41,168 nucleotides of DNA from Candidatus Eiseniibacteriota bacterium. Its GTDB lineage: Bacteria; Eisenbacteria; RBG-16-71-46; CAIMUX01; WJJG01. The stretch lies in NCBI GenBank assembly GCA_023129715.1, contig JAGMBO010000025.1, positions 1 to 41,168 on the forward strand, written 5' to 3'. The translations under genes were made by a program, and so were the position numbers. Below the pieces are notes generated by a model. It saw only the letters and a program-made list of their open reading frames with translations, was not told the origin of the DNA and searched no databases. Positions within the stretch are counted from its first letter, which is position 1. Each line of letters begins with the position of its first letter. Of the stretch, positions 1,065-39,363 are shown piece by piece.

Positions 1065-2306
1065 AGTGATCTTCACCGAGCGGACACCGTAGGGATAGGC
1101 GTCGAGGATCGCGAAGGTCAGCCCGTGCAGCGAGAAGCTCTCCCCGACCCGCGGGATGCGACCGGCGCGCTTGAGGATCAACCCCCCCACCGTATCGCAG
1201 CGCCGCTTCGGCAAGTGTAGCCCCAACTCCTGGTTGATGTCGTCAATGTCAGTCAGCGCCTCGACGATGTAGACGCGCGGCGAGAGCCGGCGGATCTTGT
1301 GGTAGGCACGCTCGTGCTCGTCGGCCAACTCGCCGACGATCTCCTCAACGATGTCCTCGACGGTGACGATTCCCTGGCAGGCGCCGAATTCATCGACGAT
1401 CACGACCATCGGATTGCGCGCCTTCTGCATCTCGACGAGCAGGTGATCGACGCGCTTCGAGTCGGGCACGATCGGCGCCGGACGCAGATAGGCGTCGACG
1501 AGCTCGTTCGGCTCAGGGTCATAGAGCAGGTCGAAGATGTTGAGCACCCCCACAACGCGGTCGCGTTGCTTCTCATAGACGGGAATGCGCGTGTAGCCAT
1601 GCCGGCGAACGAGCGTGCGCCAGACATCGCAGGTCGCTCCGCGCTCGATGCCGATGACGCGGTTCATCGGAATCATCACCTCGCGCGCCACCGTGTCGCG
1701 GAAATCGAGGATCGATTCGAGCATGCGCTTTTCGCGCCGGCCGCTCTCATCGTCGCTCTCGGCCTCACGCACCAGGACCCGCAGCTCCTCGCGGGTCACG
1801 AAGGGATCGCGCCGGCCACGCCCCATCAGGCGCAGCAGACCGAGGACGTAGAAATGCGCGATCCCGGTCAGCGGAAGGAAAAGGTGATGAAGCAGCTCGA
1901 GACCGCGTGAATCACGCATCAGCAGACGACCGGCCCGCGATTTGCCGATCACCTTGGGCACGATCTCGGCGGCCACGACGATGACGATCGTCATCCCGAG
2001 CGTCGAGATCAGCGGCGCCACCCATCCGGCTCCGCCCGCGCGATCAACAAGCCCGGTCGCCACCGCCGCCGCAAACACGTTGAAGCCACTCTGCCCGACC
2101 AGAAACATGATCAACAAGTGCTCGCGACGCTCGAGCAGCCGCACCGCCCGACGGGCGCGCGGCTGGCCGCTGCGGGCCCGCTGGCGTAGGCGAATCCGGT
2201 TGGTCGAGATCAGGGCCATCTCCGCGGCGGAGAAGTAGGCCGACCCGGCCAGCGCCGCCAGGATCAGCGCGCAATGCAGCAGGATGGTGATCAGCCCCGG
2301 GTTCAT
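1041..2306 (-). CDS. CNNM/CorC-type membrane protein with paired CBS domains (second of tandem pair)
   Basis: 421 residues. Domain order: CNNM (DUF21) transmembrane domain about 1-185, with the EIVPK motif at 114-118; a CBS pair about 208-325, including IPVYE and VDEFGACQGIVTVEDIVEEIVGE; and a CorC_HlyC C-terminal domain about 340-414. This family is annotated as hemolysin-like or Mg2+/Co2+ efflux proteins of the inner membrane, and the CBS pair binds nucleotides. The actual substrate is not established by sequence. The ATG at 2306 overlaps the stop of the upstream gene (ATGA, 2303-2306) and has GGGGAGG four bases ahead; the longer reading frame upstream lies inside the neighbour. Co-transcribed with 2303-3565. 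Its stop lies in the right arm of the inverted repeat. Confidence 0.9.
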   Translation of the reverse strand: MNPGLITILLHCALILAALAGSAYFSAAEMALISTNRIRLRQRARSGQPRARRAVRLLERREHLLIMFLVGQSGFNVFAAAVATGLVDRAGGAGWVAPLISTLGMTIVIVVAAEIVPKVIGKSRAGRLLMRDSRGLELLHHLFLPLTGIAHFYVLGLLRLMGRGRRDPFVTREELRVLVREAESDDESGRREKRMLESILDFRDTVAREVMIPMNRVIGIERGATCDVWRTLVRRHGYTRIPVYEKQRDRVVGVLNIFDLLYDPEPNELVDAYLRPAPIVPDSKRVDHLLVEMQKARNPMVVIVDEFGACQGIVTVEDIVEEIVGELADEHERAYHKIRRLSPRVYIVEALTDIDDINQELGLHLPKRRCDTVGGLILKRAGRIPRVGESFSLHGLTFAILDAYPYGVRSVKITLPPEEGA

Positions 2307-3565
2307 CGGGCCTCCCCATCCCGTCGCGGCAGCTCGAGCAACACCTTGCGGACCTGGTGCCGGGCCACCTCCAGGATGTGGAATCGCAGGCCACGCCACT
2401 CGAGGATGCTCCCCGGGCGGGGAATGCGGCCATGCACCTCGCAGAGGAACCCATTGAGGGTGACGGCGGAATCGGCGGGGAGTTCGAGGTGCAACGACTC
2501 GTTCAAATCAGGCAGCGGAATTCGCCCCGGCAGGATGTAGAGCCCTTCCCCCTTCTTGCGAATCGGGGTTTCCTCGAGGTCGAACTCATCGTAGATATCG
2601 CCGACGATCTCCTCGATCAAATCCTCGCGCGTGATCAGGCCGAGCATCTCCCCATACTCGTTGACCACGATGACCATCGCCGTGCGGGCGTGCTGAATGG
2701 CATAGAAAATCCGATCGGCCGGAGCGGCGTCGGGGAAGAAAGCCACCGGGCGCAACAGGTCGCGCAAACCCTTCTCGGGGGCCAGGAGATACTCCTTGGC
2801 CTGGACGAAGCCGATCACATTGTCGGGTTCGTTCTCGTAGACCGGATAGCGCGAGTGGCGCGTCGCGCGCATCTGGCGCACGATCTCTTCGGCCTTCTCA
2901 TCCGCATCAAGGTCGACGACGTCGACCCGCGGCGTCATGATCTGCTCGGCCGTGCGCGCCGGGAACTCGAGGATGTTCTGCACGAAGCGGCTCTCGTTCG
3001 GCGTCATGACCGCCGGCTCATCGTCGGCGTCTTCGAGCACGGCCCGCAGTTCGGCGCGCGAGATCATCTGCGGCGTCACCGGCATTTCGGCCGGGAAGCC
3101 GACCGCGCGCAGGATCAAGGTGGCCAGGCGGTGGAAGGCGAGCGCCAGGGGGCCGATCAGGCGGCAGCTCAAGGCGAGCACCCCGGCGACGGCTCGGGCC
3201 ACGCCGACGGGGAAGTTGACCGCCAGGGTCTTCGGGGTGATCTCCCCGAAGAAGAGCACGACGAGGGTCACGCCGACGAACGAGACCTCGACCGCCCGCG
3301 CGCGATCCTCGATGAGGGTCAGAAAGAAGGCAGTGGTGATCGAGGAGAGGGCGATGTTGACCAGGTTGTTGCCCACCAGCAGCGTGCTCAGGGTGCGCGC
3401 CGGTTCGGCCAGGAGCCCGAGGATCCGCCGCGAGGCCCGGTCGCGGCGCTCCTCCATCTTGTGCAGCTGCAACCGGCTGAGCGAGAAGACCGCCGCCTCG
3501 GTGCCCGAGAAGAAGGCTGAGAGGGCAAGCAGCCCGATCATCAGCCCAAGCAGAACTGTGCCCAC
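2303..3565 (-). CDS. CNNM/CorC-type membrane protein with paired CBS domains (first of tandem pair)
   Basis: 420 residues from the GTG at 3565, chosen because GGGGGAGG precedes it by about six bases; an upstream in-frame GTG (3601) would add 12 residues and has no ribosome site. The N-terminal membrane helix (GTVLLGLMIGLLALSAFFSG) starts the CNNM/DUF21 domain, which has EITPK near residue 155. A CBS pair follows (from IMTPRVDVVDLD to GLITREDLIEEIVGDIYDE), then a CorC_HlyC domain (from GLYILPGRIPLPDLNE). It is a paralogue of the downstream gene, and the two overlap by four bases. Tandem CorC/HlyC paralogues are common and may form hetero-oligomers, but that is inference. Predicted inner-membrane ion transporter or regulator; substrate unknown. 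Confidence 0.9.
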   Translation of the reverse strand: MGTVLLGLMIGLLALSAFFSGTEAAVFSLSRLQLHKMEERRDRASRRILGLLAEPARTLSTLLVGNNLVNIALSSITTAFFLTLIEDRARAVEVSFVGVTLVVLFFGEITPKTLAVNFPVGVARAVAGVLALSCRLIGPLALAFHRLATLILRAVGFPAEMPVTPQMISRAELRAVLEDADDEPAVMTPNESRFVQNILEFPARTAEQIMTPRVDVVDLDADEKAEEIVRQMRATRHSRYPVYENEPDNVIGFVQAKEYLLAPEKGLRDLLRPVAFFPDAAPADRIFYAIQHARTAMVIVVNEYGEMLGLITREDLIEEIVGDIYDEFDLEETPIRKKGEGLYILPGRIPLPDLNESLHLELPADSAVTLNGFLCEVHGRIPRPGSILEWRGLRFHILEVARHQVRKVLLELPRRDGEAR

Positions 3566-3666
3566 GGCACTCCTCCCCCGGCCCTTGGAAGGGCATCCCA
3601 CGGTCCCGGCGGACAGCGCGGCGGCCCATGGCGGCAGTCTCGGCGGGATCGGCCCGCTCCAGCCGC

Positions 3667-11584: not shown

Positions 11585-11818
11585 CTAGGAGTCCTTGTCA
11601 GTGGGCTTGTCGACGGGTCTGTTCGAGGTGGCCTTCCCGTCTTTCTCCCGATCGTCCTCACGAATCCCCTGTTTGAACTCGGTGATCCCGCGTCCCAAAC
11701 CGCGGGCCAGCTCGGGGATCTTGCGGGCGCCGAAGAGCAGCACCAGAACGAGGACGATGAGTAGGATCTCCGTGGCTCCCAGGGGACCCAGGAGCTGAGC
11801 AACAACCGAGGGCACCAT
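11585..11818 (-). CDS. tatA: Sec-independent translocase subunit TatA/TatE
   Basis: 77 residues. One membrane helix (about 14-30, ATEILLIVLVLVLL), the hinge FGARKIPELARGLG and an amphipathic helix (GRGITEFKQGIRED) are the hallmarks of TatA, followed by a short charged tail. TatA oligomers form the pore of the twin-arginine system that exports folded proteins. The ATG at 11818 has AAGGAGGT ahead; a longer frame upstream has no support. It is the last gene of the folB-to-tatA operon. tatC is 8 kb away on the same strand, and no tatB is seen, so a TatA/C two-part system is inferred. Confidence 0.93.
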   Translation of the reverse strand: MVPSVVAQLLGPLGATEILLIVLVLVLLFGARKIPELARGLGRGITEFKQGIREDDREKDGKATSNRPVDKPTDKDS

Positions 11819-11899
11819 GCCGACCTCCTTGCCGGGACGCGCGGGCTCAGGTGGCGCGTGCAGCGACAACCGAGCTTAGCATAGCCTGGTGGGCGCGGT

Positions 11900-12580
11900 C
11901 TAGCGCGTGCTGTGGCCCGCGGATGCATCCTCGAGCGCATCGGCGAGGTCCTGGCCGAGGATGACGAGGACATCCACCGTCGGCGAGGAGCGCTCCTGCG
12001 AAATCAGCCGTCCGACCCCCCAGCGCTCCCGGAGAAAGGTAACCACCGCCTCCCCCTCGAGACGCTCGGCGGAGCGCCGCACGACGATCGTCTCCCGGTA
12101 GGAATCGGTGTCCGCATTCGAGATGCCGAGCACATCGAACCCGCTTCCGCGGAAGGCCTCTCGCATCCGCGCCGCCAGCCGGGCAACGCCGCAACCGTTG
12201 GCCAGATGCAGTCGGATCGGCGGCGCGGCACCGATCGCCGCGTGTCCCGGGGAGGAACGGAAGGGCGCAATCGGCGGCAACGAGCGCCGGCCGGCGACGC
12301 GATCTCCGGCCTCCCCGAAACCCTCTCCGCCGGCCGGGGCGACCGCCGGTAGGATCTGGGGCCGCCCCCCCCCCCAGCCCTCCTCACCTGTCTGCCCCTC
12401 CTGCACACCACGGGAGGGCAGCAGGCCGAGCAACGAGGCGGCAAAAAGCAACAAGACGACAACCAGCAGGAACTCGAGCACGCCCCGCACGAGCCGTCCC
12501 AGCGAGCGATCCCCCCCGCCGCGCGAGCGCCGAGAGCGCCGTGAACTGGCCCGCGAGGCGGATCGGCGGGCGGCGGTCAT
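11900..12580 (-). CDS. Membrane-anchored LytR_C (LytR C-terminal) domain protein
   Basis: 226 residues. A Ser/Arg-rich cytoplasmic start (1-28) precedes a membrane helix about 30-54, a Pro/Gly-rich linker, and a LytR_C domain about 125-215 (IRLHLANGCGVARLAARMREAF, SYRETIVVRRS, VDVLVILGQDL). The domain occurs at the end of LytR-CpsA-Psr cell-wall ligases and alone in many Gram-negatives, where its role is unknown; an envelope function is likely. The ATG at 12580 overlaps the stop of the GlmU-HIT gene (ATGA, 12577-12580). A run of 11 C on the plus strand (12365-12375; poly-G in the coding strand) lies between the helix and the domain. A one-base slip there would cut off the domain. Confidence 0.8.
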   Translation of the reverse strand: MTAARRSASRASSRRSRRSRGGGDRSLGRLVRGVLEFLLVVVLLLFAASLLGLLPSRGVQEGQTGEEGWGGGRPQILPAVAPAGGEGFGEAGDRVAGRRSLPPIAPFRSSPGHAAIGAAPPIRLHLANGCGVARLAARMREAFRGSGFDVLGISNADTDSYRETIVVRRSAERLEGEAVVTFLRERWGVGRLISQERSSPTVDVLVILGQDLADALEDASAGHSTR

Positions 12581-13746
12581 GACATCACCTCGGAGAGCCG
12601 CTTCCACGCTCGGGCCGGCGTCTCGGGGATAAGCTTCAGGCCGGCGAGCAAGGGCAGGAAGCTGATGTCGCCACCCCAACGGGGCACGAGGTGGAAGGCG
12701 AGGTGTTCTCCGGTGCCGGAATTGCATCCCATATTGAGGGCATCGAAGGGATAGACGGCGCGCAGGGCGCTCTCGCCCCGCCGCACCCAGTGAGCCAACT
12801 CGGCAACCTCCTCCGGGGTCAAGGCGAGCAGCGTCGTCACATGGCGACGGGGAAAGGCGAGCAGATGCCCATTGTTGAACGGCTGGAGAGCCACCTTCAG
12901 CCCAGCCAATTCCCCGCTGCCCAGCAGAAGGTGATCGCCACTCGCCGCACCGGCTGCCCGCGCCACCCGTGCGGCGGCGGCGCAGAGCTCACAGGGAGGG
13001 GCCGGATTGCGCAGGCGGGAGGCATGCACGCGCTCCACTTCGTAGAGTTGTTCGAGGGTATTGACGCCGAGGATCTCGGCGGCATCGCGGAGATGATAAC
13101 TGCCGATCCGGCGGCCGGAGCGGTAGAGCAGGCCGATCACGTCGGTCAGATAGAGCTCGCCGCTCGCATTGGCGGGCTGCAGCTGCCCCAACGCGGGAAA
13201 GAGATCGGCCGCCTCGAAGGCGATGATCCCGGAATTGATCTCCTGAATCGTCTCCTGGCCCGGAGCGAGATCGCGCTGTTCGACGACCCCGGTACAGAGT
13301 CCCGCGGTGTCGCGCACGATGCGCCCGTAGCCCCCCGGGTCCTCGAAACTGGCGGTTAGGATGCTGGCCGCATTGTTCTCCTGGCGGTGGAGCTCGAGCA
13401 GCTCGGCAAGCGTTTCGGAGCGCAGGAGGGGCACATCGCCGTAGACCACGAGCACGGTACCGGAGAAACCCGCGAGGGCTGCCCCGCTCGCGCGCACGGC
13501 ATCCCCCGTACCGCGCTGCTCTCGCTGCAGAACGATCTCCACATCCTCGGTGGCCACCGCCGCTTCGATCTCTGCGGCGCGATGCCCGAGGACGAGCAGG
13601 ACGCGGTCGGGCTGTAGACCCCGCACCGTATCCAACACGTGGGAAAGGAGCGGTCGCCCCGCCATCGGATGGAGGACCTTGGGCAAATCGGGGGGCATGC
13701 GCGTCCCCTTGCCCGCGGCGAGAATGACGACCGCCGGTCCCCTCAT
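12577..13746 (-). CDS. Fusion of GlmU-type UDP-GlcNAc pyrophosphorylase with a HIT domain
   Basis: 389 residues. Residues 1-~235 match the uridylyltransferase half of GlmU: LAAGKGTRMPPDLPKVLH, QRGTGDAV, YGDVPLL (102-108), EINSGIIAF and NASGELYLTDVI. They would make UDP-GlcNAc from UTP and GlcNAc-1-P. The left-handed beta-helix acetyltransferase half of GlmU is absent. Instead, residues ~250-365 are a HIT domain close to the Ap4A-phosphorylase-like group: CELC (252-255), NNGHLLAFPRRHV and HLAFHLVPRWGGD. The histidine triad reads H348-L-A350-F-H352, so the middle, normally nucleophilic His is Ala. The NTase half looks active; the HIT half is predicted not to be catalytic and may only bind nucleotide. 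The gene overlaps panC and the LytR_C gene by four bases each. Confidence 0.85.
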   Translation of the reverse strand: MRGPAVVILAAGKGTRMPPDLPKVLHPMAGRPLLSHVLDTVRGLQPDRVLLVLGHRAAEIEAAVATEDVEIVLQREQRGTGDAVRASGAALAGFSGTVLVVYGDVPLLRSETLAELLELHRQENNAASILTASFEDPGGYGRIVRDTAGLCTGVVEQRDLAPGQETIQEINSGIIAFEAADLFPALGQLQPANASGELYLTDVIGLLYRSGRRIGSYHLRDAAEILGVNTLEQLYEVERVHASRLRNPAPPCELCAAAARVARAAGAASGDHLLLGSGELAGLKVALQPFNNGHLLAFPRRHVTTLLALTPEEVAELAHWVRRGESALRAVYPFDALNMGCNSGTGEHLAFHLVPRWGGDISFLPLLAGLKLIPETPARAWKRLSEVMS

Positions 13747-14756
13747 GCCTTCCCCCTCGGCAGGCGGATCCCCTCGGCCATCCGTCCCCCCGGCACGTTG
13801 ATCAGGATGTTGTCGATCAGGCGCCCCACTCCCAACCGCGCCGCGATCGCGATCAGGGTCCGCCCCTCCAGAACGCGCCGTTCCTCGAGGCTCTCGGGAT
13901 CGACGAGCGCGATGTACTCGATCTCGAACCCGGTGTCCCGGATGATCGCATCGTGCATGCGCGCCCGCAGGCGGTTCGGATCGCGCTCGTTGCCCAGCAG
14001 GATCTCCCGCTGCGCCATGCGCAGGGTCTCGTAGAGACGCGGCGCTTCCCGGCGCTCTTGCTCGGTCAGATACCGATTGCGCGAACTCAGCGCCAGCCCA
14101 TCCTTCTCCCGCACGGTGGGACAGCCGACGACCTTCACGCCGACATTCAAGTCGGCGAGCATGCGTTCCAGGATGATGAGCTGCTGGGCGTCCTTCTGGC
14201 CGAGGTAGAGCCGGTGGGGCTGGACGATGCCGAGCAGCTTCAGGACCACCGTGCAGACCCCGTCGAAGTGGCCCGGCCGTTCGGCCCCGCAGAGGCGCTC
14301 CGCCATCGGCCCGACTCCGACCCGGGTGGTAAACCCCTCCGGATAGAGGTCGGCAACCTCGGGCACGAAGACCGCATCGACTCCCGCCTCGCGCGCGCGA
14401 TCCATGTCCCGCGCCAGATCGCGCGGGTAGCGTCCGTAGTCCTCGCCGGGACCGAATTGCAGCGGGTTGACGAAGATGCTCACTACGACGACGCCATTCT
14501 GGCTGCGCGCCTTGCGCACCAGCGCGAGGTGCCCCGCGTGCAGCGCGCCCATCGTCGGCACGAAACCGATCTTGCGCCCCTGCTCACGCATCTGCATCGA
14601 GAACCGATGCTGGGAGCCCGGGGATTGCAGGCGCTTCATCACGCTGGGGGCGCTCTTGGATCCCCGGGCCTTCCTCTCCCCCGGCGCACTCGCGCCGGAA
14701 GAAGCGTGCTTCGCGCGGGCGGGGACCCGCTTCTTTGGTGAGCTGCCGGTCATCAT
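13743..14756 (-). CDS. panC: Pantothenate synthetase
   Basis: 337 residues. It joins pantoate and beta-alanine with ATP to give pantothenate. Motifs: GFVPTMGALHAGHLALV (HIGH-like ATP site), FVNPLQF, YLGQKDAQQLIIL and REKDGLALSSRNRYL (SSRN). The ATG at 14756 (or the next codon, 14753) is chosen because GGGAGG precedes it; it overlaps the panB stop. This gives a basic Lys/Arg/Ser/Pro-rich N-terminal extension of roughly 40-50 residues compared with the usual ~280-residue enzyme. An internal ATG at the MKRLQSP segment would give normal length but lacks a clear ribosome site. The stop overlaps the next gene start (ATGA). Confidence 0.93.
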   Translation of the reverse strand: MMTGSSPKKRVPARAKHASSGASAPGERKARGSKSAPSVMKRLQSPGSQHRFSMQMREQGRKIGFVPTMGALHAGHLALVRKARSQNGVVVVSIFVNPLQFGPGEDYGRYPRDLARDMDRAREAGVDAVFVPEVADLYPEGFTTRVGVGPMAERLCGAERPGHFDGVCTVVLKLLGIVQPHRLYLGQKDAQQLIILERMLADLNVGVKVVGCPTVREKDGLALSSRNRYLTEQERREAPRLYETLRMAQREILLGNERDPNRLRARMHDAIIRDTGFEIEYIALVDPESLEERRVLEGRTLIAIAARLGVGRLIDNILINVPGGRMAEGIRLPRGKA

Positions 14757-15640
14757 TCGCCTCCCGCTTCTGGCGAACCCGCTCCGCGGGGCGTGGTCCG
14801 CTTCGGATCGCATGCTGGCGTCTTCCCACCAGGTCCATAGCTGTGCTCCGCCGCGGGAAACGTTCCCTCTTGCACCGTCCGCACGTACTCCTCGACCGCG
14901 CCGGTGATCAGATCGGCGCCCTCGAGAAATCGGCGCACAAACCGCGGACGGAACTCGCCGAAGAGCCCCAGCATGTCGTGCAGCACGAGGACTTGGCCGT
15001 CGCACCCAGGTCCGGCACCGATGCCGATCGTCGGAATGCGCAACTGCGCGGTGATCTCCGCAGCCAGCAGCGCCGGAACCGACTCGAGCACGAGGCTGCA
15101 GCAACCGGCCGCCTCGAGCGCCGCCGCATCGCGGCGAATAGTCTCCGCCTCGACCGCCTCCCGTCCCCGCACGCCGTAGCCCCCAAGGGCCAGAACCGAC
15201 TGCGGCGTCAGGCCCAGGTGCCCCATGACCGGGATTCCCGCGGCGACCAGCGCCTCGATGGCCGCCACCGAGCGCGCGCCCCCTTCCAGCTTGACCCCGT
15301 CGGCCCGTCCCGCCCGAACCAGCTCGCCGGCCGCCTCCAGGGCGTGGGCGACACTCGGCTGATAGGTCATGAAGGGCAGGTCGGCGAAGACCAGCCCCCA
15401 GGGACGCGCACGCGTCACCGCGCGGGTGTGGTGGATCATCTCGTCCAGGGTCACCGGCAGGGTGGAATCGTAGCCGAGCACCACTTGGCCGAGGCTGTCT
15501 CCGACGAGCAACACCGGAATCCGGCAGGCGTCGAGAATCCGCGCCATCGTGAAGTCGTAGCAGGTCAGCATCGGGATCTTGCGGCCCGCCTCTTTCCAGG
15601 CTGCCAGCCGGGGCACGGTCATGCGCACGGCAGCGGTCAT
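14753..15640 (-). CDS. panB: 3-methyl-2-oxobutanoate hydroxymethyltransferase (ketopantoate synthase)
   Basis: 295 residues. It adds a hydroxymethyl group from methylenetetrahydrofolate to 2-ketoisovalerate, the first pantothenate step. Motifs: MLTCYDFTMARILD, VGDSLGQVVLGYDSTLPVTLDEM, VKLEGG, PVMGHLGLTPQS and GIGAGPGCDGQVLVLHDMLGL. The conserved core ends at FPAAEHSY; a ~20-residue poorly conserved tail follows. The ATG at 15640 overlaps the upstream kinase stop by four bases. It runs straight into panC, so both enzymes are translated together. The folate cofactor it needs links it to folB and folK in the same operon. Confidence 0.95.
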   Translation of the reverse strand: MTAAVRMTVPRLAAWKEAGRKIPMLTCYDFTMARILDACRIPVLLVGDSLGQVVLGYDSTLPVTLDEMIHHTRAVTRARPWGLVFADLPFMTYQPSVAHALEAAGELVRAGRADGVKLEGGARSVAAIEALVAAGIPVMGHLGLTPQSVLALGGYGVRGREAVEAETIRRDAAALEAAGCCSLVLESVPALLAAEITAQLRIPTIGIGAGPGCDGQVLVLHDMLGLFGEFRPRFVRRFLEGADLITGAVEEYVRTVQEGTFPAAEHSYGPGGKTPACDPKRTTPRGAGSPEAGGE

Positions 15641-16296
15641 CGTTCCTCCATCTCCTGTTGCGCGCGCCGGAAGACCCCCCTGCCCTCCTCCAACGCCAGC
15701 GCCGCCTGCAGGAGTTCCGGCACCAGGCCCGGTTCGGCGATGAAGTCGTTTTCCGCCGCGTGAACGACGAGCACCGGGGCTCCATGGTAGTGATTGAAGA
15801 AGTAGGAGTACGCCTCAGCGAGCGTTTCGAGGTATGCCGGATCCATACTGCGTTCGAAGGGGCGGCCGCGGCGGCTGACCCGCTCGAGAAGCACGTCGAC
15901 GGTCGCCTGCAAGTAGATCACTCGGTCGGGCTTGGGAAGCTTCGCCTCCATCAGCTCGAAGATCTGGTTGTACATTCCCAGTTCTTGATCATCCAGGTTG
16001 ATGTGGGCAAAGATGCGGTCTTTCTCGAACATGTAGTCACTGATCATCGTCTCGCGAAACAGGTCGCGCTGGAGCAGGGCACACTGCTGGCGATAGCGGC
16101 TGAGCAGGAAGAAGATCTGCGTCTGAAACGCATACCCGCGCCGGTCGCGATAGAAGTCACCGAGGAAGGGGTTCTCCTCGACCTGCTCGAGGAGCGCATA
16201 GGCGCCGAGCAACTCGGAGAAGCGCTGCGCCAAGGAGGTCTTGCCGACCCCGATGACGCCTTCGACGGCAATGAAGTGCACCTCTGGAACTGCCAC
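15637..16296 (-). CDS. Deoxynucleoside kinase family protein (dAK/dGK-like)
   Basis: 219 residues, normal for the family. The Walker A P-loop GVIGVGKTS begins near residue 13; YMFEKDRIFAHINL and a Glu/Arg-rich lid region ERVSRRGRPFERSMD are typical of deoxyadenosine/deoxyguanosine kinases. These enzymes phosphorylate purine (sometimes pyrimidine) deoxynucleosides with ATP for salvage. The start is GTG at 16296, seven bases after the folK stop, with G-rich ribosome-site-like sequence ahead; an internal GTG five codons on is an alternative. In many bacteria this gene sits next to folK or panB as here. The substrate preference cannot be read from the sequence. Confidence 0.88.
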   Translation of the reverse strand: MAVPEVHFIAVEGVIGVGKTSLAQRFSELLGAYALLEQVEENPFLGDFYRDRRGYAFQTQIFFLLSRYRQQCALLQRDLFRETMISDYMFEKDRIFAHINLDDQELGMYNQIFELMEAKLPKPDRVIYLQATVDVLLERVSRRGRPFERSMDPAYLETLAEAYSYFFNHYHGAPVLVVHAAENDFIAEPGLVPELLQAALALEEGRGVFRRAQQEMEER

Positions 16297-16302
16297 CCCT
16301 GC

Positions 16303-16896
16303 CTACCCCTCTCCGTGCAGTTCGGCGTCCGCCTCCCGCGCCGCGGCGGATGGCGCCCACGGCCAGACGCTGTCGCGGTCGCAGGCCAAGAGCATCTCGC
16401 GCACGTCCGCCTGGCGCAACGGATGACGCCAGTGGGGCAACAACTCCGCCAGGGGAACGAGGACGAAGGGGCGGTCGTGCAACCGCGGATGGGGCACGGT
16501 CGCCCGGGGCCCCCGATGCACGCGATCACCCCACAGGAGCAGGTCGATATCGATCGTCCGGGCCCCCCATCGGATGGTCCGCTGCCGTCCGAGTCGGTCC
16601 TCGATCTTCAGAAGCGCCGCCAGCATCGTCTCAGGATCGGCCGGGGCAAGCAAGGCAACGACCTGGTTGAGATAGCAGGGTTGTGTGTGGGGGCCGAGCG
16701 GCTCGCTCTCGTAGATTCGCGAGGCGCGCAACACGGTGCCGAAGCGCGTCTCGATTGCCGCTCGTGCGCGGGCGAGATGGCGCGCACGATCCCCCAGGTT
16801 GCTTCCCAGACCTAGCGCGGTCCAGGTCCCAGGCGCCTCGCCGCCGGTGATCCCCTGTGGGCCGCCGCTCGCTTGGGGCTTGGTCAATCCCCCCAC
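16303..16896 (-). CDS. folK: 2-amino-4-hydroxy-6-hydroxymethyldihydropteridine pyrophosphokinase (HPPK)
   Basis: Up to 197 residues. It transfers pyrophosphate from ATP to the pterin alcohol in folate synthesis. Motifs: ALGLGSNLGD, YESEPLG, YLNQVVAL, RWGARTIDIDLLLWGD (metal aspartates) and PHPRLHDRPFVLVPLAEL. The core starts near residue 25, so the ~24 N-terminal residues are variable. The start is uncertain: GTG at 16896 sits directly against a GGGGGA run, while TTG at 16887 has better spacing from it. It follows folB by 36 bases and precedes the kinase by six. Confidence 0.94.
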   Translation of the reverse strand: MGGLTKPQASGGPQGITGGEAPGTWTALGLGSNLGDRARHLARARAAIETRFGTVLRASRIYESEPLGPHTQPCYLNQVVALLAPADPETMLAALLKIEDRLGRQRTIRWGARTIDIDLLLWGDRVHRGPRATVPHPRLHDRPFVLVPLAELLPHWRHPLRQADVREMLLACDRDSVWPWAPSAAAREADAELHGEG

Positions 16897-16932: not shown

Positions 16933-17298
16933 CTACGCCTCGGGTACCGAGAGCTCGACTTCGACGCAACTCAGGTGTGCATCGAAGGGCAGGCTCAGTT
17001 TGCGCACGCGCACGACCGTACGGGTCACCGGGAAGCGTTCACCGATCGCCACTCCGATCTCGCGTGCCAGTGACTCGATCAGATGATACTTGCGCCGCTC
17101 GCTGACCTCGCGCACGGTTTCGTAGACTCTCTGGTAATCGACGGTCTGCGCCAACTCATCGCTGCGAGCAGCCGCAGAGAGATCGAGGCACAGCTCGACA
17201 TCGAGGGTCACCTTCTGGACCCACTCCTTCTCGAGGTCCCCGACGCCAAGTCGAGGAAACACCGTGATTTCCTTCAGGCGGATGATATCGTTGCCCAT
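16933..17298 (-). CDS. folB: Dihydroneopterin aldolase
   Basis: 121 residues, typical length. It cleaves dihydroneopterin to hydroxymethyl-dihydropterin and glycolaldehyde, the step before FolK. Conserved sites can be matched to the Staphylococcus enzyme: the Glu in GDLEKEW (E22 equivalent), the Tyr in VDYQRVYE (Y54) and the Lys in RVRKLSLP (K100). The usual YGYHG at the substrate site reads FPRLG here, so the side activity on other pterins may differ. ATG at 17298 heads the operon down to tatA. The 63-bp gap to the divergent glycosyltransferase must hold its promoter, but I cannot pick out a convincing pair of boxes. Confidence 0.9.
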   Translation of the reverse strand: MGNDIIRLKEITVFPRLGVGDLEKEWVQKVTLDVELCLDLSAAARSDELAQTVDYQRVYETVREVSERRKYHLIESLAREIGVAIGERFPVTRTVVRVRKLSLPFDAHLSCVEVELSVPEA

Positions 17299-27026: not shown

Positions 27027-28472
27027 CTAGATCTCCTCGGATGCCCCGCGGAACTCCTTCCATCGGTCGGCGAGCAGCCCGGGCAATACCTCCCATTCGT
27101 CCTCGTTGAGCGTGCGTAAATCGAGCACTAGGCGATCTTGCTCCAGGCGGCCGACGACCGCCGGAACGCCCAGTCGTAGGTGCCGGGAGAATCCATCCAG
27201 TGAACCGCTCAGCACCCGCAGCCCCACGCCGACCGAGGGAAGCTGCTCATCGGGCAGCGCGCCGCCGCCGGCCGCCGAGTCGGTGTGCACGACGGTCGCC
27301 TCCACCCCCGGCATCCCTCGCCGCTCCAGCTCATCAATGATCCGTGCGGCGACCGCCTCGAGTTCCGCCACCGGGCGGGTCATCATTCGATAGAGGGGAA
27401 TCCGATCGAGGCCCGCGTTTCCCCGCACATACTCGAGCAGCGTCGCCTCCAGCGTCGCCAGGTGGAGTTTATCGAGACGGACGATCCGAGCCGCAGGATG
27501 CCGACCAACGCGCGCCACCCAAGCGGCCCGTCCGAGGATCAGCCCCGCCTGCGGCCCCCCCAGCAGCTTGTCCCCGCTACAGGTCACCAAGTCGGCTCCC
27601 TGCTCGAGCGCCTCCTGGATACGGGGCTCGCCCCGCAGATAGTCTGACGGATGCTGGGCCAGCGCGCCACTGCCGAGGTCCTCGACAAGCGGAATCCCCC
27701 GCTCATGCGCCAGCGGCGCCAGGGCCCCGCGTTCGACCGCCGCGGTGAATCCCCGCACCACGAAGTTCGAGGGATGGACCTTGAGGATCAGGCCGGTGCG
27801 GTCGTTGAGCGCCGCGGCGTAGTCCTCGACACGGGTGCGGTTGGTCGTGCCGACTTCGCGCAGGATCGCACCGCTGGCCGCCATGATGTCGGGCAGGCGG
27901 AAGCTGCCGCCGATCTCGACCAATTCGCCGCGCGAGACAATCACCTCGCGTCCGGCGGCCAGGGCTTGCAGGACCAAAAAGACCGCGGCGGCGTTATTGT
28001 TCACCGCCATGGCATCCTCGGCGCCGGTCACCCGGCAGAGTAGATCACGGACATCGGCGAGCCGCGAGGTGCGCCGCCCCGTCTCGAGGTTCATTTCCAG
28101 GTTCGAGTACCCAGCCACCACGCGGGCAACGGCATCTTGCGCCGCCGGGCTCAGCGGCGCCCGGCCCAGGTTGGTGTGAATCAGGATCCCGGTGGCATTG
28201 AAGACCCGGCGCAGGGGGGGACGGACCAGATCCGCCGCGGCACGCTGCACGCGCGCGGCCAGCGCCGCCGGTGTGATCTCCGAGGCGGAGAGACCTCCCG
28301 CACGCACTTCCCGCCGCACGTCGGCGAGTGCTTCTCGAATCAGCGCGACCCGCACCTCGTGAGAAAGCCTTTCCCGCAGAGAGGCGAGTTCGGATGTCGC
28401 GAGCAGTGTGGTGACCGATGGAAGGCAACGCAGCAAGGCCGCCACAGGGTGTCCCTCGTCCCCACGGCTCAT
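27027..28472 (-). CDS. selA: L-seryl-tRNA(Sec) selenium transferase
   Basis: 481 residues. It converts Ser-tRNA(Sec) to Sec-tRNA(Sec) with selenophosphate, using PLP. Motifs: [60 protein letters not shown] and the PLP lysine K302 in [13 protein letters not shown]. Full length with an intact active site. The ATG overlaps the EF-G stop by four bases. The usual partner selB is not next to it, nor are selD or a tRNA-Sec in the window. Its presence predicts that this organism makes selenoproteins; none of the genes here shows an in-frame TGA that clearly needs read-through. Confidence 0.95.
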
Positions 28473-30532
28473 GACGCGCCTCCCCCGCTGACCTCATCGA
28501 ACCGATCGAACACCATCGAGTAGGAGGCCCGTCCCTGGGTGATGCTGCGCAGGTCGGTCGCATAGCCGAACATCTGGGCCAGGGGAGCCCTCGCCCGCAG
28601 GATTTGCAGGTCCCCCTGCACTTCGGTGCCGAGCACGCGGCCCCTACGCGCGGCGAGTTGCTGATGCACGGCCCCGACGAATTCCGAGGGGCAGATGATC
28701 TCGAGCCGCATCACCGGCTGGAGCAGGATGGGATGGGCATGGCGGCAGGCATCCCGGAATGCGCTCAGCGCCGCGTTGCGGTAGGCGAGATCGCTGGCAT
28801 GCACTTCGTGCGTCGCGCCGCCCACCAAGTGGACGAGGATGTCGGTGGCCGGATAGCCATAGCGGATCCCCGACTCGGCCCCGCTGCGGGTGACCTCCTC
28901 GATCGCCGGAAGGTATTCGTCGGGAATCGCTCCCGGGGGAAGCGAGCTGCGAAAGACGATCCCCGCTCCGCGCTCCAGCGGTGAGACTGCGATGACCGTC
29001 TGGCCGTAGTGCTCACGCCCCCCGGTCATGCGGGCGAATTCGCCCTCGGCGCGCGCCGTGGTGGTAATCGTCTCCCGGTAGGTTACCTGTGGCTTGCCGA
29101 GCCGGATCTTGAGACCGAACTCGCGCACCAGGCGATCTTCGAGCACTTCGAGATGCAACTCACCCATGCCTTTGATGATCCGCTGGCCGGTGTTCTCGTC
29201 CCAGCGGACTTGAAAGGTCGGGTCGTCGGCCGCGAGATGCGTCAAGGCAAGTTCGATGCGGTCTTCCTCACCCGCGGTGCGCGCCTCGAGTGAAGCCATC
29301 ACCACCGGCTCGGGGAAGTGCATCGACTCGAGAGTGATCGGATTCTGCGGATCGGAGAGGGTGTCCCCGGTGCGCGAAACCTTCAGACCAACGGCAATGC
29401 CGATATCGCCCGCCAGCACCTCTTTGACCCGGCTCTTCTTCTCCCCATGTGCCCGGTAGACGCGCGCCACGCGCTCGCACCGATCCTCGCGGGGATTGTA
29501 GACCGTATCCCCTTCGGCCAGGCGTCCGGAGTAGAGCCGCAGATAGCTGATCCGCCCGCGGCCCCCCTCCCCCGAGGCGGTATGGGTTTTGAACACCAGC
29601 GCTGCCAGTGGCCCCTGCGGATCGACCGGCCGCTGCTCGATCTCGCCGGTGGTGGGATGGCTCCCCGTCGCGGGGGGCACCTCGTGCGGCGCCGGGAGGA
29701 AATCGACGACCCCATCCATCAGCAACTGAACCCCGATGTTGCGCAAGGCCGCTCCGGAGTAGACCGGAACGAAGTGACGGCGCAGCACACCGAGGCGAAT
29801 GCCGCGGCGCAAGTCGTCGGGCGCCAGATCCTCATCCGCAAGGAACCGCTCGATCAACTCCTCGTCCTCGGCGGCGACCGTCTCGAGCAGGTGTTGGCGG
29901 CCCTCGGCCGCCGCAGCCGCCATCTCCACCGGGATCGCCCGACGCGTGAATTCCCGCCCCTGGCTCTCTTGATCCCAGACGACCGCCTCCATCGCCATCA
30001 GATCGACGACGCCGGCAAGTCTCTGCTCCGCGCCGATCGGCAACGTCAACGGCAGGGGCGTCGCCCCGAGGCACGTGCGCATCTGGTCGAGCACACGCTC
30101 GAAGTCAGCGCCGACGCGGTCCATCTTGTTGACGAAGACCATGCAGGGAACGCGGTAGTGCTGGGCCTGGTGCCAGACCATCTCCGATTGCGGCTCGACG
30201 CCGCCCCGGCCACAGAGCACGACGATCACGCCGTCGAGCACGCGCAGCGAGCGCTCCACCTCCGCGGTGAAATCGACGTGCCCCGGTGTGTCAATCAGAT
30301 TGATCTGGTGGCCGCGCCACTCGACGGTGATCGACGCGGCGGTGATCGTGATCCCGCGCTCGCGCTCCTGCACCATCCAGTCGGTGACGGTACTGCCGTC
30401 ATCGACTTCACCCAACCGGTGCGAGGCCCCGCTGTAAAAGAGCATCCGCTCGGTGGTGGTCGTCTTGCCCGCATCGATGTGGGCGATCACCCCGAGATTG
30501 CGGATCAGCTCGAGCCTGTTCTTGCGTGCCAT
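28469..30532 (-). CDS. fusA: Elongation factor G (paralogue type)
   Basis: 687 residues with all five EF-G domains. G motifs: AHIDAGKTT (G1), ERGITIT (G2 region), DTPGHVDF (G3), NKMD (G4). The switch I stretch [24 protein letters not shown] has the VDDGxTVTD form seen in mitochondrial EF-G2 and the spd/EF-G2 bacterial group, rather than the EVHDGAATMDWM of canonical EF-G. It is also away from rpsL, rpsG and tuf. It may therefore be a second EF-G with a special role such as ribosome recycling. That assignment is inference; translocase activity cannot be excluded. The ATG at 30532 has GAGAGGCGG ahead and a strong promoter upstream. It overlaps selA by four bases. Confidence 0.9.
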
Positions 30533-36620: not shown

Positions 36621-38714
36621 CTAGAGCCCCAGCAGCGGCCCGACGAGCTCGTGCAGCCGCAGGATCAACGGGGTAAAGACGAGCGAGACGATCGCCATCA
36701 GCTTCAGCAAGATGTTGATCGACGGGCCCGAGGTGTCCTTGAATGGGTCGCCGACGGTGTCGCCCACGACGGCCGCCTTGTGCGTCTCGGACCCCTTGCC
36801 CCCCAGATTACCCGCCTCGATGAACTTCTTGGCATTGTCCCAGGCCCCACCCGCGTTGGCCAGCATGAGGGCCATCGGGACCCCGGTGATCAGCGAACCG
36901 ATCAGCAGGCCCCCGAGCGTCTGGGGACCGAGAACGATTCCCACGACCAGCGGAATCAGCACCGCCAGGGTCCCCGGCAGGACCATCTGCTTCAGGGCGC
37001 CGCGGGTGGTGATGTCGACACAGCGCGCATATTCGGGCTGCGCCTCGCCCTCCATCAACCCGGGGATCTCGCGGAACTGGCGGCGAACCTCCTCGACGAC
37101 GCGGAAGGCGGCATCCCCCACCGCCCGCGTCGTGTCGGCGGCGAAGAGGAAGGGCACCACGCCGCCGATGAGGAGCCCGACGAGCACGCGGGGATTCACC
37201 ACATCGAGAGTCAGGGCGCTCCCCCTCGCCTGACCGACCGCCTGCATGTAGGCGGTGAAGAGCGCCAGCGCGGTCAGCGCTGCGCTGGCGATGGCAAAGC
37301 CCTTGGCGATCGCCGCCGTCGTATTCCCGGCGGCGTCGAGCGCATCGGTGCGCTGGCGCACCTCGGGGCCCAGGTGGGCCATCTCGGCAATACCGCCGGC
37401 GTTGTCGGCGATCGGGCCGTAGGCGTCGACACTGACGGTCATCGCGGTAATCGCCAGCATGCCGACGGCGGCGAGCGCGATGCCGAAGATGCCGACCAAC
37501 GCGTGCGAGCCGAGAATCGCGATGGCGATGACAATCATGGGCAGCACCGCGCTGCGCAGCCCGATGGCGAACCCGGAGATGATGTTCGTCGCTGCGCCGG
37601 TGCGCGAGCTCTCGGCAATCGCCCGGATCGAACGACCCGAGGTGTAGTACTCGGCGACAAAACCGACGATCATGCCCGCCACCAGCCCGAGGAAGGCCGC
37701 CAGGAAATAGCGCACCCCCATGTTGGGAAAGGCGAGCAGGGTGACGATCAATGCGCCGGCGGCGAAGAGCACGGCCGCAGACATCGTGCCCATACGCAAC
37801 GCGATCTGGGGATTGCCACCCTCGCGCGTGCGCACGGTGAACATCGCCAGCAGCGAGGCGCCGATGCCGATGGCGACCAGCGCCATCACGTAGCCGATCG
37901 CCTCGCTCACCGAGGGCAGACCGGCGGCGGCCACCTTGGGAAAGACCGCCAAGGCGATCACCAACGAGGAGACGACTGAACCGACATAGGACTCGAAGAG
38001 GTCGGCACCCATCCCGGCAACGTCGCCGACGTTGTCGCCGACATTGTCGGCAATCGTGGCGGGGTTGCGCGGATCGTCTTCAGGAATGCCCACCTCGACC
38101 TTGCCGACCAGGTCGGCGCCGACATCGGCCGCCTTGGTATAGATGCCACCCCCGACACGGGCGAAGAGCGCGATCGACGAGGCCCCCATGCTGAAGCCGG
38201 CCACGATGGTGATGGCTTCGGTCATCCCGAAGAGTGAGCTGAAGAAGTAGAAAACCAACGAGAGGGCCAGCAGCCCGAGACCGGCGACGGTGAAACCCAT
38301 CACCGCCCCTCCGGGAAAGGCGACACTGAGCGCCGCATTGAAGCTGTGGCGAGCCGCCTCGGCGGTGCGCGTGTTGGCGCGGGTGGCGATCTTCATGCCG
38401 AAAAAGCCACAGATCATCGAGCTCACCGCGCCCACCAGGTAGGCGATCGCCGTCTTCCAACCGAGCCCTTGGATCTGCGGATCGCTGATCCCCACCGCGA
38501 GCACCACGACCAGGATGGCGATGAAGACGAGCAGCGTCGAGTACTCCCGCCGCAGAAACGCCATCGCCCCCTCGTGCACCGCATCGGAGATGCGCACCAT
38601 CTCTGCGGAGCCAGGATCCTTGCGCAGCACGCGCACCCAGGCGACCAGCGCCGCCACCAGGAGCGAGAGCGCTCCCGCCGCGATCGCGATCAGGGTCGTC
38701 CTTGGAGCATCCAT
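36621..38714 (-). CDS. hppA: Membrane-bound K+-dependent pyrophosphatase (ion pump)
   Basis: 697 residues with about 16 membrane helices. Pyrophosphate-site motifs include GGGIYTKAADVGADLVGKVE, EDDPRNPATIADNVGDNVGDVAGMGADLFESY and the C-terminal DNAGGAWDNAKKFIE-like region. GNTTAA at 463-468 has Ala where K+-independent enzymes have Lys, so it should need K+. The Glu at 241 in DLFESY is in the position seen in Na+-pumping and dual pumps. It is therefore K+-dependent and probably moves Na+ or Na+/H+, though H+ alone cannot be excluded. It conserves energy from biosynthetic pyrophosphate. The ATG at 38714 follows a GAGGGGGGGG site; the ORF further upstream overlaps pth. Confidence 0.95.
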   Translation of the reverse strand: MDAPRTTLIAIAAGALSLLVAALVAWVRVLRKDPGSAEMVRISDAVHEGAMAFLRREYSTLLVFIAILVVVLAVGISDPQIQGLGWKTAIAYLVGAVSSMICGFFGMKIATRANTRTAEAARHSFNAALSVAFPGGAVMGFTVAGLGLLALSLVFYFFSSLFGMTEAITIVAGFSMGASSIALFARVGGGIYTKAADVGADLVGKVEVGIPEDDPRNPATIADNVGDNVGDVAGMGADLFESYVGSVVSSLVIALAVFPKVAAAGLPSVSEAIGYVMALVAIGIGASLLAMFTVRTREGGNPQIALRMGTMSAAVLFAAGALIVTLLAFPNMGVRYFLAAFLGLVAGMIVGFVAEYYTSGRSIRAIAESSRTGAATNIISGFAIGLRSAVLPMIVIAIAILGSHALVGIFGIALAAVGMLAITAMTVSVDAYGPIADNAGGIAEMAHLGPEVRQRTDALDAAGNTTAAIAKGFAIASAALTALALFTAYMQAVGQARGSALTLDVVNPRVLVGLLIGGVVPFLFAADTTRAVGDAAFRVVEEVRRQFREIPGLMEGEAQPEYARCVDITTRGALKQMVLPGTLAVLIPLVVGIVLGPQTLGGLLIGSLITGVPMALMLANAGGAWDNAKKFIEAGNLGGKGSETHKAAVVGDTVGDPFKDTSGPSINILLKLMAIVSLVFTPLILRLHELVGPLLGL

Positions 38715-38739
38715 GCTTGCCCCCCCCTCTGCGAACCCA

Positions 38740-39363
38740 TCAATAGCCCGGTGACGGGCCCGCGTCATCCCGCCCCACTTCACCCGCCGGAGAATCCCAT
38801 GGCACCGCGAGCCCATTGAAGCGGTTCATCGCCGCCGCGAGCCCCGCGGTCAAGAGCACCCGCAGCGCCGCCACCGCGCGGGTGATCATCACATCCATCC
38901 GGCCCCATTCCTCGGGCGAGAAATCGCCCAGGACATGATCGACGGCGCCCGTATCGTCTTCGGGTCGCCCAACGCCGATGCGCATGCGCGCCACCGAGGC
39001 GGGAGCCAGGGCGGCCAGCAGCGACTGCAGCCCCCGATGCCCCCCCGCACCTCCCTCGGGCCGAATGCGCAGCCGCCCGAGGGGCAGATCGATGTCGTCG
39101 AGAACGACCAACAGGTCACGGGGGCCGGCGCCGCTGCGCAGCAAGGCTGCGACGATGTCCCCGCTGCGGTTCATCCAGGTCAGGGGACGGATCAGGCGGT
39201 GCTCCTCCCGGCCCACGCGCACGCGACACTCCTCGGCATCACGCCGCCGACGCCAGGGGGAGCGGCCCCATTGCTCGCGGGCGGCATCCAGCACGAGGAA
39301 CCCCGCATTGTGCCGGGTCCGTTCGTACTCCGCGCCCGGATTGCCGAGTCCCAGAACGATCAC
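38740..39363 (-). CDS. pth: Peptidyl-tRNA hydrolase
   Basis: 207 residues. It frees tRNA from stalled peptidyl-tRNA. Motifs: VLGLGNPGAEYERTRHNAGF (catalytic His in RHNAGF), LTWMNRSG, LVVLDDIDLPLGRLRIR (catalytic Asp) and GGAGGHRGLQSL. The GTG at 39363 is chosen because the conserved start follows at once and AGGA lies nine bases ahead; a GTG at 39390 would add nine residues. The tail after NRFNG is not conserved. It lies between rplY and hppA; ychF, often next, is absent. Confidence 0.95.
   Translation of the reverse strand: MIVLGLGNPGAEYERTRHNAGFLVLDAAREQWGRSPWRRRRDAEECRVRVGREEHRLIRPLTWMNRSGDIVAALLRSGAGPRDLLVVLDDIDLPLGRLRIRPEGGAGGHRGLQSLLAALAPASVARMRIGVGRPEDDTGAVDHVLGDFSPEEWGRMDVMITRAVAALRVLLTAGLAAAMNRFNGLAVPWDSPAGEVGRDDAGPSPGY

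Follow-up and report, generated by a model that had tools for sequence, protein, structure and literature searches.

A GlmU-type uridylyltransferase domain fused to a HIT domain that lacks its middle triad histidine in a bacterial order

Analysis of a 41,168-nucleotide stretch of DNA (the window) revealed a single gene in which a GlmU-type uridylyltransferase domain is followed by a HIT domain that has lost its middle triad histidine, and nine further genomes (MAGs) of the order carry the same open fusion. The HIT half, fused to GlmU-N, would no longer be an enzyme, as judged from the missing nucleophile, phosphate loop and Asn of the MLN motif. We give roughly even weight to the reading in which the uridylyltransferase half makes a UDP-sugar and the pseudo-HIT half is a folded, probably zinc-stapled scaffold at the position of the GlmU beta-helix.

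The fusion gene has the following layout.
12577..13746, minus strand: GlmU-N/HIT fusion gene, 389 amino acids, a single ORF with an ATG start
13063..13746, minus strand: GlmU-type uridylyltransferase domain, residues 1-228, from domain models and invariant columns
12994..13062, minus strand: linker helix, residues 229-251, from the structure model and the alignment of fused proteins
12580..12993, minus strand: pseudo-HIT domain, residues 252-389, from domain models, PDB matches and the fold model

The sequence-only reading had proposed a fusion of a GlmU uridylyltransferase with a HIT domain, and model searches bear this out, both domains lying within the one 389-residue ORF. Residues 4-245 match GlmU models (TIGR01173, 251.7 bits, residues 5-246; PRK14352, 258.5 bits), and a sequence search of the PDB matched the uridylyltransferase half to GlmU 4aaw (2e-58). 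For residues 270-375 the match is to an ATP adenylyltransferase/HIT model (64 bits), the Pfam HIT score of 24.7 bits is above the cut-off of 21.5, and the PDB matches of this half are the Rv2613c-type Ap4A phosphorylases 6af2 and 3ano (about 1e-16 to 2e-18). Assembly error, chance or a one-off mutation was ruled out, with ten MAGs from four families carrying the same open fusion without the middle His; the operon neighbours seen around the other fused genes are the same as in the window. No NCBIfam model among the 25 matches listed spans both halves, and a full-text literature search found no paper on a fusion of GlmU with a HIT domain. The statement that this architecture has no standard annotation thus stands for curated families as well as papers. 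In general, HIT domains fused to other domains and family members that have lost catalysis are known; no description of the pairing with GlmU and its clade-wide loss turned up.

Alignment with 26 diverse GlmU proteins defined 28 invariant columns, and all 28 residues are present in nine of the ten fused proteins, including that of the window; the fused protein of genome G003 has only ten of them. We infer from homology that the product of the uridylyltransferase half is UDP-GlcNAc or a closely related UDP-sugar. The window's genome contains glmS and two glmM-family matches, both under the cut-off. Missing from the window protein is the C-terminal left-handed beta-helix acetyltransferase domain, whose place is occupied by the HIT domain. 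The score against TIGR01173, the model of full-length bifunctional GlmU, is below the curated cut-off of 366.85 bits, and none of the 44 related genomes of the class contained a GlmU match above this cut-off, the uridylyltransferase domain occurring in the class either alone or joined to HIT. Since the class has a GlmU without an acetyltransferase domain, one step of UDP-GlcNAc synthesis there (GlcN-1-P acetyltransferase) is without an assigned protein. Genome G039 (C217) has one split GlmU-like pair, possibly foreign, that spans the C-terminal part. A hexapeptide-repeat protein (L163; G000:C111, about 13283-13735) scored 41.6 bits with the GlmU model and appeared by eye closer to WbpD-kind sugar acyltransferases than to the GlmU C-domain.

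The junction between the two halves is placed as in GlmU itself. In S. aureus GlmU the linker comprises residues 229-251, and the beta-helix acetyltransferase domain, which provides most of the trimer interface, begins at 252 (PMC11947611). The linker of the window protein has the identical span, with the HIT domain starting at 252, and in nine of the ten fused proteins N229 and C252 are spaced 23 residues apart. In a full-length structure model, the first half superposed on GlmU 1g97 at 1.1 A over 241 columns; from residue 268 onward, with no alignment behind the HIT half, pLDDT fell below 50, and the domain orientation is not readable. A model of the HIT half alone, built from a three-row alignment without the nine fused relatives and of modest confidence (pLDDT 75), gave 3ano as the best PDB match (Foldseek E 2.9e-9, TM 0.73 by query length) and also matched the Zn-bound HIT protein 3o0m. 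Both the Pfam HIT score and the 3ano match of the model assign this half to the HIT fold.

Catalytic and nucleotide-contact features are missing from the HIT half at the following sites.
12691..12705, minus strand: broken triad HLAFH, from codon translation, with H348 retained (proposed zinc ligand), A350 at the place of the nucleophile, and H352
12889..12897, minus strand: KVA at the place of the MLN motif, the invariant Asn gone, from the alignment
12706..12717, minus strand: GTGE, at the place where unfused relatives have the AGAG phosphate loop, deleted here, from the alignment

Inspection of the codons confirmed HLAFH with Ala for the middle His, and the window protein therefore lacks the HxHxHxx catalytic triad of the HIT superfamily. 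Nor is the Ala unique among homologues that keep HxHxH, as the middle His is absent clade-wide (Ala in six fused proteins, Gly in two and Val in two), and the third triad position is His in three, Gln in five and Glu in two. All ten fused proteins have lost the Asn of MLN and carry a deletion of three residues in the AGAG phosphate loop, features that do not vary among the 24 tabulated unfused proteins. By sequence comparison, the AGAG loop lies at the position of the Ser altered in the S147Q mutant structure of Rv2613c, which reads AGGS. The score of 64 bits with NF052622, the model of Rv2613c-type Ap4A phosphorylases, is below the curated cut-off of 290. The description of the rest of the HIT domain as well kept holds for the fold, PRWxGD and the CxxC/His/His set, and fails for the MLN Asn and the AGAG loop. 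Because the MLN Asn and the AGAG loop are lost in all ten fused proteins and the third His in seven, canonical nucleotide binding is doubtful, and the proposal of a nucleotide-binding but non-hydrolysing domain is unsupported as stated.

These losses bear directly on the main functional rival, a nucleotide sensor, in which the dead HIT pocket would bind ATP, Ap4A, UTP or UDP-GlcNAc uncut and tune the uridylyltransferase; control of UDP-GlcNAc by sensing is one of several possibilities. An Fhit variant with Asn for the middle His (H96N) still binds substrate tightly and retains its biological function (PMC4074825), a precedent for binding and function without catalysis, and pocket-side N291, N338, G340 and G344 remain in nine or ten of the ten fused proteins. 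In addition to the lost loop, Asn and third His, however, triad positions two (A/G/V) and three (H/Q/E) vary, unlike a retained ligand site, and we regard a sensor as unlikely.

The fusion was present in all ten order genomes with a readable locus, representing four families, out of 11 genomes searched; the eleventh, G010 (68% complete), showed a HIT paralogue only. In the rest of the class, GlmU-N and HIT are separate adjoining genes of the same cluster, in different frames in all 27 pairs read. The cluster recurring in the class is folB-folK-dNK-panB-panC-glmU(N)-HIT-lytR_C-tatA, and its members surround the fusion gene of the window as follows.
16933..17298, minus strand: folB
16303..16896, minus strand: folK
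15637..16296, minus strand: deoxynucleoside kinase
14753..15640, minus strand: panB
13743..14615, minus strand: panC, the pantoate-beta-alanine ligase part of the 13743-15785 ORF and the upstream operon gene
11900..12727, minus strand: LytR_C-domain gene, the downstream neighbour, whose listed ORF shares its first part with the last part of the fusion gene and whose true start may be further downstream
11585..11869, minus strand: tatA

Elsewhere in the window are SelA (L-seryl-tRNA selenium transferase; 27027-28472, minus strand), adjoining an EF-G-like gene (28469-30532), two tandem CNNM/CorC transporter genes with overlapping ORFs (1041-2399 and 2303-3601, minus strand), and a membrane H+-pyrophosphatase (36621-38816, minus strand). 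A search of the window's genome for 16S rRNA found none.

The unfused HIT proteins of the class had an intact triad and AGAG loop in all 32 cases read, a count for which the first 24 unfused proteins (22 from the class and two from elsewhere) came from a search pattern in which HxHxH was already demanded, and ten further class loci were found by a profile without this demand and were all intact. The pattern had missed one of 25 loci, that of G025, where the contig ended; this locus is included in the ten. The class offers a before-and-after series for the conversion of an enzyme into a non-catalytic part, with sister lineages having separate genes and an intact triad and one order having a fused, dead HIT. 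The fused HIT domains form one clade in the tree (support 99/97). HIT paralogues with an intact triad elsewhere in the order genomes form a clade of their own (99/92), which rules out the order's other HIT gene as the source of the fused half. Most simply, the operon neighbours fused once in the ancestor of the order and HIT catalysis was lost, in either order; the comparison of ten fused with 32 unfused proteins does not amount to ten independent losses and possibly reflects a single event.

A scan of the contigs of named genomes that used the single protein as query returned no relative. An alignment-based scan of the named genomes returned, as its best 80 loci, mostly GlmU domains of other phyla, with two cases of unfused, neighbouring GlmU-N and HIT (L073 and L136) and no second fusion, near relatives possibly being missing from this set. 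Viral contigs scanned for HIT rows yielded none. One candidate second fusion, L178 (G027:C61), in which GlmU-N without its end runs in frame into a HIT domain with an intact triad, was set aside and is taken as a deletion or an assembly join.

The features retained by the HIT half include the following.
12982..12993, minus strand: CELC (C252, C255), proposed zinc ligands, in nine of ten fused and 24 of 24 unfused proteins tabulated
12841..12843, minus strand: H302 of PRRH, proposed zinc ligand, from the alignment
12667..12684, minus strand: PRWGGD motif, from the alignment, with PRWxGD in ten of ten fused proteins

In such HIT proteins, CxxC, a His and the first triad His presumably bind zinc, and C252, C255, H302 and H348 together look like a zinc site, as predicted from the residues. 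All four are retained in nine of the ten fused proteins and all four were lost at once in G006, a joint retention and joint loss that fits a metal site rather than catalysis. The G006 protein (L012; G006:C10:171806-172927) is the sole fused member without CxxC, H302 and the first triad His. Present in all ten fused proteins are N291, Y332, G340, G344 and PE, in addition to PRWxGD.

A scaffold role appears to fit best, since the HIT half has lost its catalytic features and several of those for nucleotide contact but retains the fold, the metal-type ligands and the linker length. The pseudo-HIT tail would be a folded scaffold for dimerisation or partner docking, held by a zinc staple of CxxC/His/His and placed where GlmU bears its trimerising beta-helix acetyltransferase domain. 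More tentatively, and with less than even confidence, we suggest that throughout the order the dead zinc-stapled HIT has replaced the missing beta-helix domain as a structural (oligomerising or docking) part; if so, fusion to an operon neighbour turned an enzyme into a scaffold across a bacterial order. HIT proteins form two-fold dimers rather than trimers, which counts against a scaffold that replaces a trimer domain. The modest confidence of the HIT model and the greater divergence of the fused than of the unfused HIT also speak against a scaffold.

Mean identity is 38% for the fused HIT versus 50% for its GlmU-N, compared with 54% for the unfused HIT versus 57% for GlmU-N. Nei-Gojobori (NG86) dN/dS for the window versus G002, near saturation and thus rough, was 0.30 in the HIT half and 0.29 in the GlmU half, and for the window versus G002, G004 and G001 the HIT-half values, equally rough, were about 0.30-0.31, close to the GlmU half. 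The fused HIT half is still under purifying selection (rough dN/dS about 0.3); partial relaxation is real, yet the domain is constrained, that is, relaxed but not free. Faster evolution of the fused half, and the absence from G006 of all four putative zinc ligands, would be expected of a passive relict, a HIT half without a role of its own that persists through a needed enzyme and contributes at most to folding stability. The dN/dS values argue against a relict, as do the ten open frames in four families without truncation, the near-fixed linker length, the invariance of PRWxGD, N291 and PE, and the better conservation of the HIT half than of the degenerate GlmU half in G003. We consider a relict improbable, slightly more so than a sensor.

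The G003 protein (L008; G003:C487:5586-6737) is a fused protein in which 18 of the 28 invariant uridylyltransferase residues are gone. No other GlmU was found in this 87%-complete genome, and panC was likewise not found; L008 may thus be a pseudoenzyme in both halves, or else a copy that accompanies an intact gene missing from the assembly. For G003 versus G001, dN/dS was 0.18 in the HIT half and 0.39 in the GlmU half. Because the HIT half is here better conserved than the degenerate uridylyltransferase half, the HIT tail may matter on its own.

A HIT half that has become an enzyme of another kind by using other residues might explain why P299, G293 and S343 vary less among the fused proteins than among their unfused relatives. 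Such new chemistry is nonetheless very improbable, as no conserved substitute nucleophile is found near the triad and position 350 is A, G or V.

Comparison with known systems places the pseudo-HIT scaffold reading in context. Among solved structures, Rv2613c-type Ap4A phosphorylases (3ano, 6af2) come closest to the HIT half by both sequence and fold and share PRWGGD, whereas the window HIT lacks the nucleophile, the phosphate loop (S147 site) and the MLN Asn, has CxxC, and is joined to GlmU-N. Zn-bound HIT proteins (3o0m, M. smegmatis) match in fold, and the fusion has the CxxC/His/His set, although its zinc is predicted from these residues and its triad is broken. Fhit H96N illustrates that a non-catalytic function can outlive loss of the middle His, but it is an engineered single change that binds substrate tightly, and such binding is doubtful for the fused HIT. 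In Nit-Fhit (1ems), a HIT domain is likewise joined to an unrelated enzyme, the partner there being a nitrilase-like domain. Finally, the window protein shares with GlmU the N-terminal uridylyltransferase domain, its full set of invariant residues, the close superposition on 1g97 and the linker helix, but where GlmU has a left-handed beta-helix acetyltransferase domain, the window protein has HIT.
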